A program made the translations under genes and the position numbers. The notes beneath the pieces were generated by a model that made no database searches, was not told the origin of the DNA, and saw only the letters and a list, made by a program, of their open reading frames with translations. Positions 4,071-18,303 of a DNA stretch of 32,622 bases are shown here, one piece after another. Location of the stretch: positions 1-32,622 of the forward strand of contig JACPSE010000179.1 in assembly GCA_016193465.1 (NCBI GenBank), read 5' to 3'. The first letter of the stretch is position 1; every line of letters starts with the position of its first letter. This stretch comes from Deltaproteobacteria bacterium. GTDB taxonomy: Bacteria; Desulfobacterota; Binatia; UBA9968.

Positions 4071-4140
4071 GCGAACGGTGAATAGTAAATAGCGAATAGT
4101 CCTATCCTCCTACCATTCGCTATTTGCCATTTGCTATTGG
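4071..4140. repeat. Heptamer-periodic inverted repeat between tmk and holB
   Basis: Left units GCGAACG, GTGAATA, GTAAATA, GCGAATA (4071-4098) face right units CCATTCG, CTATTTG, CCATTTG, CTATTGG (4113-4140). An 11-nt perfect stem pairs 4087-4097 with 4115-4125 around a 17-nt loop, extendable with G-U pairs. The tmk stop codon (4134-4136) lies inside the right arm, and the left arm ends 10 nt before the holB start codon. Confidence 0.85.
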
Positions 4141-4826
4141 CCATCTTTCAGTCTTTCGTCAACGATCTTTCTGATCTTTTCGTGGACCTCCGACACGGGG
4201 CATGTGGCATCAAGGATAAGGATCCGTTCCGGTTCAGCCCGAGCCAACTCCAGAAAACCCATCCTCACCCTTTGGTGAAACTCGGACTTCTCCCGCTCAA
4301 ATCTATCCGGGCCTTCTAGCCTTCCAGCCTGCCCGCTTCCCGGCCCTCCAGCTAGGAGGCCAGGAGGCTTGGAGCCTTGGAGCCTTTGCCTAGTCCGTGA
4401 CAGACCAACTTCCACCGGGCAATCCAAGAGAAAGGTCAAATCCGGTGTGATGCCATCACTGGCAACCCGATTGAGACGCCGGAGCATATCGAGATCGACT
4501 CCGCGCCCATAGCCCTGGTACGCCAGAGTGGAATCCGTGAAACGGTCGCATAGGACTGGCGTGCCGCTTGCAAGGGCGGGGCGAATCACTTCCCGGACAT
4601 GCTGTGCCCGGTCTGCCAGATAAAGAAAGAGCTCCGTAGGGGAAGAGATTTCTACCTTACCTGCCTCAAGGAGGACCTGCCGGATCATCTCCCCCAAGGC
4701 TGTCCCCCCGGGTTCTCGTGTGGTCAAACAGAGCTTACCGCGGCTGGTGAGATACTTCTCCAATAGTTGGAGCTGTGTGGTCTTACCCGATCCGTCACCG
4801 CCTTCGAAAGAGATCAAACGAATCAT
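4134..4826 (-). CDS. tmk: Thymidylate kinase with a repeat-derived LID insertion
   Basis: Phosphorylates dTMP to dTDP. P-loop GGDGSGKT (9-16), TREPGGT (36-42), the DRF motif (94-96) and the GRGVDLDML segment are intact. At 230 aa it is longer than the usual 205-215. The excess is residues 149-172, a Gly/Pro-rich stretch between the RTRQR LID segment and DRFEREKSEFH. These 24 codons coincide exactly with nine 8-nt repeats (4311-4382), so the reading frame is kept. The final residues and stop codon come from the heptamer array at 4071-4140. No clear ribosome site precedes ATG 4824-4826. Its catalytic residues appear complete, so the enzyme is probably active; the effect of the insertion on LID movement is unknown. 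Confidence 0.94.
   Translation of the reverse strand: MIRLISFEGGDGSGKTTQLQLLEKYLTSRGKLCLTTREPGGTALGEMIRQVLLEAGKVEISSPTELFLYLADRAQHVREVIRPALASGTPVLCDRFTDSTLAYQGYGRGVDLDMLRRLNRVASDGITPDLTFLLDCPVEVGLSRTRQRLQGSKPPGLLAGGPGSGQAGRLEGPDRFEREKSEFHQRVRMGFLELARAEPERILILDATCPVSEVHEKIRKIVDERLKDGQ
4311..4382. repeat. Octamer-periodic repeat inside tmk
   Basis: Nine 8-nt units: GCCTTCTA, GCCTTCCA, GCCTGCCC, GCTTCCCG, GCCCTCCA, then the reversed-sense GCTAGGAG, GCCAGGAG, GCTTGGAG, CCTTGGAG. The first five and last four are roughly reverse complements, giving a G/C-rich hairpin. It corresponds exactly to codons 149-172 of tmk. A related array is at 16960-17023. Confidence 0.85.
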
Positions 4827-4845
4827 GGAGGCAGGTCAATGCGGA

Positions 4846-4908
4846 GTGAAAAATGAAAAATGCAAACTGCAAAATTTAAATTTTTCATTTTGCAATTTGC
4901 ACTTTGCC
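4846..4908. repeat. A/T-rich heptamer-periodic inverted repeat upstream of tmk
   Basis: Nine consecutive 7-nt units from GTGAAAA through ATGCAAA, CTGCAAA, ATTTAAA to TTTTGCA, ATTTGCA, CTTTGCC. A 14-bp stem with one mismatch pairs 4861-4874 with 4888-4901 around a 13-nt loop. Read on the minus strand the stem is followed by T-rich sequence, so it might also act as a weak terminator after the receiver gene and before tmk. Confidence 0.8.
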
Positions 4909-4929
4909 TTGTGTTAGGACGCGAGTTGT

Positions 4930-16935: not shown

Positions 16936-16959
16936 CAAACCTTCCGCATTATCGTTAAA

Positions 16960-17023
16960 GGCTGGAAAGCTAGGATGCCAGGACGCTGGAAGGCTCGCTA
17001 GCTTCCAGGCTTTATAGCTTCCT
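16960..17023. repeat. Octamer-periodic repeat upstream of pilX
   Basis: Eight 8-nt units: GGCTGGAA, AGCTAGGA, TGCCAGGA, CGCTGGAA, GGCTCGCT, AGCTTCCA, GGCTTTAT, AGCTTCCT. The two halves are partly complementary, with a 7-bp stem CTGGAAG / CTTCCAG (16986-16992 with 17002-17008). It is related in unit and layout to the array inside tmk and lies 9 nt before a heptamer array. Confidence 0.75.
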
Positions 17024-17032
17024 CGCCGCCTA

Positions 17033-17115
17033 CCATTTGCCATTCGCTATTCACCATTGACGATTGCTGTTGACCATTGACTATTCGCCATTCGCCATTT
17101 GCTATTCGCCGTTCT
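17033..17115. repeat. Heptamer-periodic array after pilW
   Basis: Twelve units of consensus CYATTSR, eleven of 7 nt and one of 6: CCATTTG, CCATTCG, CTATTCA, CCATTGA, CGATTG, CTGTTGA, CCATTGA, CTATTCG, CCATTCG, CCATTTG, CTATTCG, CCGTTCT. This is the longest array in the window and, unlike the one at 4071, runs in one orientation. It ends at the pilW stop codon (17115-17117). Confidence 0.88.
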
Positions 17116-17862: not shown

Positions 17863-18279
17863 CTACTGTTTCACCGCCGAGGAGACTGTCATGCTGTGGC
17901 TAGTATAATCCGTCCAAGCCACTTTAACGTCAATACGGTTGACACCCGTAACGGGAGAATTCGATATAATCTGCCAGCTCCGGTTGAAATTCACACCAGA
18001 AGAAGGCTTGGTATCGGAGCAACCGGCGGTCGCATAGGTAGGGCAGTTCGGCAACGCGGAAACGGTCTTCGCTTTTAGCTCCTCCAATTTGTCCTGTGCC
18101 CAGTTGGTCGCCATGGTGGTGTACAAACTTGTCTGGTTAGCGCGCATCACTGAAGTCGCGCCAATCGCCAGCCCTAAGACGGCAATGGCAAATATACACA
18201 TCGCCACTAAAACCTCTATCAGCGTAAAACCGCCGCACGACCTTGAACTTTGAACTGTGAACATTTTTCTATTCGCCAT
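17863..18279 (-). CDS. pilV: PilV-type minor pilin whose start lies in a repeat array
   Basis: A 138-aa prepilin with mature helix FTLIEVLVAMCIFAIAVLGLAIG after SCGG (Glu5 present), then TTMATNWAQDKLEELKAKTV and a C-terminal VKVAWTDYTSHSMTVSS shared with the PilV at 13026. Leader residues 1-13 are encoded by the heptamer array 18241-18303: the repeated TTCACAG-TTCAAAG-TTCAAGG units give FTVQSSR. Neither ATG 18279 nor the ATG at codon 6 (18264) has a recognisable ribosome site, so translation may depend on coupling to fimT, which ends 20 nt upstream. The mature pilin itself looks normal. Confidence 0.84.
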   Translation of the reverse strand: MANRKMFTVQSSRSCGGFTLIEVLVAMCIFAIAVLGLAIGATSVMRANQTSLYTTMATNWAQDKLEELKAKTVSALPNCPTYATAGCSDTKPSSGVNFNRSWQIISNSPVTGVNRIDVKVAWTDYTSHSMTVSSAVKQ

Positions 18280-18303
18280 TCGCTATTGACTATATGCCAT
18301 TAG
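18241..18303. repeat. Heptamer array bridging fimT stop and pilV start
   Basis: Nine units of 7 nt: CCTTGAA, CTTTGAA, CTGTGAA, CATTTTT, CTATTCG, CCATTCG, CTATTGA, CTATATG, CCATTAG. The fimT stop codon (18300-18302), both candidate pilV start codons and the first 13 pilV codons lie within it. Confidence 0.85.

Follow-up and report, generated by a model that had tools for sequence, protein, structure and literature searches.

The window analysed here comprises 32,622 nucleotides from the draft metagenome assembly of an uncultured bacterium whose closest named relatives are the 'Deltaproteobacteria' RIFCSPLOWO2 metagenome assemblies. The minus strand carries tmk (4134-4826), coding for a thymidylate kinase of 230 amino acids, an essential enzyme of DNA synthesis. 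This identification, already made in the preliminary description, is borne out by a match to PF02223 at 2.6e-53, by sequence matches to PDB thymidylate kinases and by an AF2 model with a TMPK-like fold (Z ~30 against solved enzymes), the P-loop, DR(Y/F) motif and LID arginines all being present. Within the gene, nine 8-nt units form residues 149-172 exactly, as had been proposed, tiling positions 4311-4382 of the minus-strand gene as GCCTTCTA GCCTTCCA GCCTGCCC GCTTCCCG GCCCTCCA GCTAGGAG GCCAGGAG GCTTGGAG CCTTGGAG, with the array detectable to 4388. Lag-8 identity is 0.69 compared with 0.28 in shuffles, a value that 20,000 base shuffles never reached; codon shuffling of tmk (3,000 genes) likewise yielded no comparable window.

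The array is detected by both TRF and an independent period scan, TRF splitting it in two at a switch in orientation. On the plus strand, unit classification assigns five octamers to a pyrimidine-type arm (4311-4350) and the following four to an opposed purine-type arm (4351-4382). Since the units reverse orientation midway, the array is inverted and not a simple direct repeat, a correction to the preliminary description, whose octamer units otherwise stand. The tmk copy folds into a hairpin no more stable than in shuffles (z ~0 to -0.8), while copies in a xanthine-dehydrogenase-like (XDH-like) gene and in recJ gave z values of -4.2 and -5.6, respectively. One stretch that was folded, L005, covered the LID array only in part, and its statistics derive from the period and inverted-repeat analysis. 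An Rfam scan of the whole window found no family.

Further arrays are present in the window. An inverted heptamer array (4073-4150) overlaps the 3' end of tmk and contains its stop codon, and an inverted pair of the same type of array is likewise located at the tmk 3' end in sister genome G002. Just upstream of the tmk start, the period scan detects an inverted AATGAAA/TTTGCAA-type heptamer array (4845-4913). A second element of the tmk octamer family lies at 16958-17031, ahead of the position at which the next gene probably starts; the similar octamer array noted previously at 16960-17023 is therefore real, with a lag-8 identity of 0.57. It abuts an ATTBRCY heptamer array detected by TRF and the period scan (17031-17114), indicating that different families can be direct neighbours. 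ATTBRCY-type units also form an array at 18240-18293.

The LID loop of thymidylate kinase

In E. coli TMPK, Arg153 is the catalytic arginine of the LID (PMC3169407). By alignment, Arg148 is the probable counterpart of this residue and Arg175 that of E. coli Arg158, which would place the array at the tip of the LID, between the two arginines. AF2 confidence falls below a pLDDT of 50 around residues 154-171 while the remainder of the enzyme is modelled confidently, and the thymidylate kinase carrying the array is probably still active.

Alignment with close relatives, the check proposed in the preliminary description, reveals tmk genes without the octamer array. The loop consists of 12 residues in the nearest species (80% tmk identity) compared with 26 here, and the SRT..DRFE spacing is 14 codons longer than in the nearest species and six codons longer than in two other congeners. 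The gene is therefore not simply 72 nt longer than its relatives. The net gain of 42 nt relative to the nearest species indicates that part of the loop was replaced by the array, so that of the insertion originally envisaged, the in-frame position at the LID tip is retained but the clean addition of 72 nt is not.

Distribution of the octamer family

A strict pattern of four units gave 16 matches at nine loci in this genome and none with the reversed pattern used as control. The period scan added five further loci, so that the family occupies at least 14. In 14 relatives, matches to the strict pattern were at or below the control level, and with a narrower pattern applied to 148 genomes of the class, this genome alone within the bacterial family exceeded chance. 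The octamer thus recurs in this genome but not above chance in the sisters, and neither of the two findings that would have refuted the preliminary reading was obtained. Perfect octamer arrays do occur in distant class members, AGCCTCCT at G131:C364:31347-31430 and GGCTTGGG at G122:C26:46401-46476; these are apparently ordinary direct tandem repeats.

Every classifiable octamer element contains both arms, in either order. Purine-type units read RGCTRGRA; those of the other arm are complementary to this, down to the location of the variable positions, although arms were classified by the purine content of four positions and the composition at those four is partly a matter of construction. Units are degenerate, with core positions near-fixed. 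The arrays extend over 50-80 bp and, being read in different frames and on different strands, encode different peptides. Six copies lie in frame within open reading frames: in tmk, the XDH-like gene, a PMT-like membrane protein, a YfiO/BamD-like lipoprotein (two copies, with 32 identical nt in common) and an epimerase-like ORF. The 3' end of rnhB comes from a further copy. Between elements, identical runs reach 32 nt; none of the pairs compared was identical along its entire length, and no target-site duplication was identified at the elements.

Arrays of 7-, 8- and 9-nt units

The scan for all periods covered 863 kb, about a fifth (~19%) of the genome, and the densities obtained are biased because the stretches scanned were enriched for contigs with octamer matches. 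After removal by hand of masked-N rows, period 7 was represented by 106 arrays and period 8 by 28, compared with 0-2 at periods 4, 5, 10 and 11. Merging gave 103 elements, half of which score higher for inverted repeats than the 99th percentile of random segments. Around a dozen genuinely lie within genes, the hosts including tmk, rnhB, recJ, ileS, a lytic transglycosylase gene and the XDH-like gene. Reading frames stay open across these dozen or so arrays, and Pfam domains of the host ORFs are intact on either side; the IleRS heptamer array entails almost no net change in length. The epimerase-like ORF (L220), which aligns with its family over the C-terminal half alone, is possibly a damaged gene. 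A test for position-specific constraint across all arrays, which is blurred by merged arms, gave no significant result (5798 observed, 5673 +/- 79 expected). The ATTBRCY, ATYCTC and TTGAACGNT families are shared patchily across the bacterial family.

For three arrays first counted within ORFs (L113 6922, L116 361 and L252 4396), the true start of the ORF proved to lie downstream of the array, and a match in RpoC (L246) was rejected as a charged low-complexity stretch. The PMT-like gene (L216 9561-11465; G000:C210) carries three separate in-frame arrays: a heptamer array, an inverted heptamer array and an octamer plus heptamer array. Arrays with periods of 9 and 10 nt are present in L354 (323-395 and 625-666; G000:C83), the 9-nt array directly following the octamer array in the epimerase-like ORF. 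Two DUF7948-type paralogues (L234 13716-14591 and L118 1-200) carry the same AATCCAAAATC heptamer array in the same place.

Different families in the same loops of sister species

The same loops are held by different families in different sister species, as observed, with period and inverted-repeat statistics, for the tmk LID, RNase HII and the XDH-like protein. In G001 and G002, the two other congeners, the tmk LID loop comprises 20 residues and carries an inverted ATYCTC-type heptamer array, with p ~0.01 for the period and 0.0025-0.0075 for the inverted repeat; the p values for the loops are uncorrected for the choice of the loops and are taken relative to random segments of relatives, arrays included, which renders them conservative in one respect because the reference segments themselves contain arrays. 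This array is weaker, and strict ATYCTC copies are few or absent in both genomes. Most simply, its occurrence in G001 and G002 reflects one shared event.

In RNase HII, the loop preceding KAIKKGD contains AGGCAACAGGC/GCCTCACGCC arrays here and in G016, GTTCAAAA/TTTGAAC in G003 and G001, GGATGGA/CCTCTAT in G005, AGGCAACAGG in G006 and GTGCTGA/CTCAGTC in G009, and is short in several sisters. The XDH-like loop following WGK contains the octamer here, a AAGAGTTC-type octamer in G006 and a AATCCAAA-type heptamer in G016; inspection of the other eight orthologs by eye revealed none.

Discussion

The octamer family is present in multiple copies, is two-armed, is absent from the sampled sisters and occurs in frame in tmk and other ORFs. 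We consider it likely that the tmk segment belongs to a set of dispersed palindromic two-arm octamer arrays specific to this genome, among many families of 7-9 nt units. The mobile or expanding repeat in a tolerated coding loop suggested in the preliminary description fits these observations: close relatives lack the array, and many other copies exist in this genome but not in the sisters. This reading is strengthened because other families occupy the same LID, RNase HII and XDH-like loops in sister species.

Both this bacterium and its sister species appear to have seen a proliferation of short-unit array families, with units of 7, 8 or 9 nt. New arrays would arise repeatedly, short stretches of existing arrays being copied to new sites, supplemented at the hairpin by local slippage or fold-back. 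Purifying selection would then eliminate copies that break genes, so that those surviving within genes are in frame and situated in surface loops that are disordered. For tmk, the LID tip just behind Arg148 would have been replaced after the split from the nearest sampled species.

Several known systems resemble these arrays in part. Rickettsia palindromic elements (RPEs) are dispersed, comprise several families per genome and lie in frame in unrelated housekeeping genes (PMC10969869); the arrays described here are similarly palindromic and in frame in protein-coding genes. RPEs, however, are ~100-150 bp in length with a conserved encoded peptide, whereas these arrays are 50-150 bp, consist of 7-9 nt units and encode no conserved peptide. 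A REP is a single palindrome of 20-40 bp with a GTAG or CGTC tag, and RAYT genes are flanked by such elements; REPs are mostly intergenic but sometimes lie in coding genes, and often supply the stop codon at gene 3' ends (PMC3733652). REP/REPIN sequences and the present arrays have in common that they are small palindromes, mostly intergenic, with some in coding genes or at gene 3' ends, but here the arms consist of tandem 7/8-nt units and the RAYT-like genes are not flanked by arrays.

In Geobacter metallireducens, degenerate tandem octamers and heptamers paired on opposite strands, together with a heptamer family within and between genes, have been described as regulator sites, binding of a global regulator being predicted only (PMC2700814). 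The tandem, degenerate 7/8-nt units and their pairing on opposite strands are alike; the unit sequences differ, and re-use of loops across species was not reported there. STRR-type heptamers of cyanobacteria, and TAACTGA of marine Beggiatoaceae, are likewise dispersed short units with many copies per genome, and other families here are also of 7 nt. The Beggiatoaceae sets are intergenic except for 25, and one is inverted. In contrast to STRR sequences, which are mostly direct and chiefly intergenic, the tmk array has 8-nt units and two arms and lies within a gene, and arrays here recur in coding loops. A literature search for the exact two-arm short-unit architecture returned nothing beyond the RPE, REP, Geobacter and STRR papers. 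The arrays act like RPEs or intragenic REPs but differ in architecture: they are dispersed palindromic repeats that differ from these in size, encoded peptide, single-palindrome form and RAYT flanks.

The Geobacter layout, tandem, paired on opposite strands and in part intragenic (PMC2700814), is so similar that the arrays could be binding sites for a regulator or nucleoid protein, intragenic copies being selected at the DNA level; degenerate octamers with near-fixed core positions would suit such a function. We regard this as an unlikely explanation since families differ between sisters and take one another's place in the same loops, unlike conserved regulons, and no significant position-specific constraint emerged when all arrays were tested together. 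Regulatory binding by the intergenic copies is possible.

Mobilisation of the arrays as non-autonomous hairpins by a RAYT (Y1 transposase), in the manner of REPINs, is quite unlikely. Y1_Tnp genes are unusually numerous here, with 18 matches compared with 1-10 in the sisters, the layout of the arrays is palindromic and REPs enter genes too, including approximately the same recB site in two Xanthomonas species (PMC3733652). Yet 7/8-nt arrays lie within ~500 bp of only one of the 18 Y1 genes, on a contig which is itself array-rich, REPs are not tandem 7/8-mers and common element ends were not found. Several of the 18 Y1_Tnp (RAYT-like) loci (G000; L347-L364) encode, by eye, a DnaA-like C-terminal helix-turn-helix.

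Expansion of LID codons in place by local slippage, unconnected with the other copies, is very unlikely. Tandem arrays with variable unit numbers are what slippage would leave, and the loop that AF2 models as disordered would tolerate expansion, but slippage alone yields direct repeats and not opposed arms, and this degenerate octamer, with its two-arm layout, recurs at 14 or more loci here and at none above chance in the sisters. Although repeats can mis-assemble in a draft metagenome assembly, an artefact or chance is hardly credible given the shuffle results (0/20,000 and 0/3,000), the ORFs open through about a dozen arrays and the equivalent arrays at homologous positions in independent sister assemblies.

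Beyond the dispersed genome-specific arrays favoured above, the two-arm short-unit array could represent a distinct class of element, with its own copying process, which repeatedly and independently colonises the same tolerated loops of housekeeping enzymes across the bacterial family; we advance this tentatively and consider it rather doubtful at present. If true, two-arm arrays would continually supply proteins with new segments. Previously, palindromic inserts in frame had been recorded mainly from Rickettsia and some REP-rich genomes, and the uncultured lineage described here has many families of arrays with very short units, some in coding genes. The different repeats found by sister species in the same loops of tmk and other enzymes suggest that short repeats of this type continue to settle at harmless sites in proteins. 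As different families occupy the same loops of sister species, each loop constitutes a natural replicate experiment, informative both on the tolerance of proteins for new sequence and on the spread of repeats.
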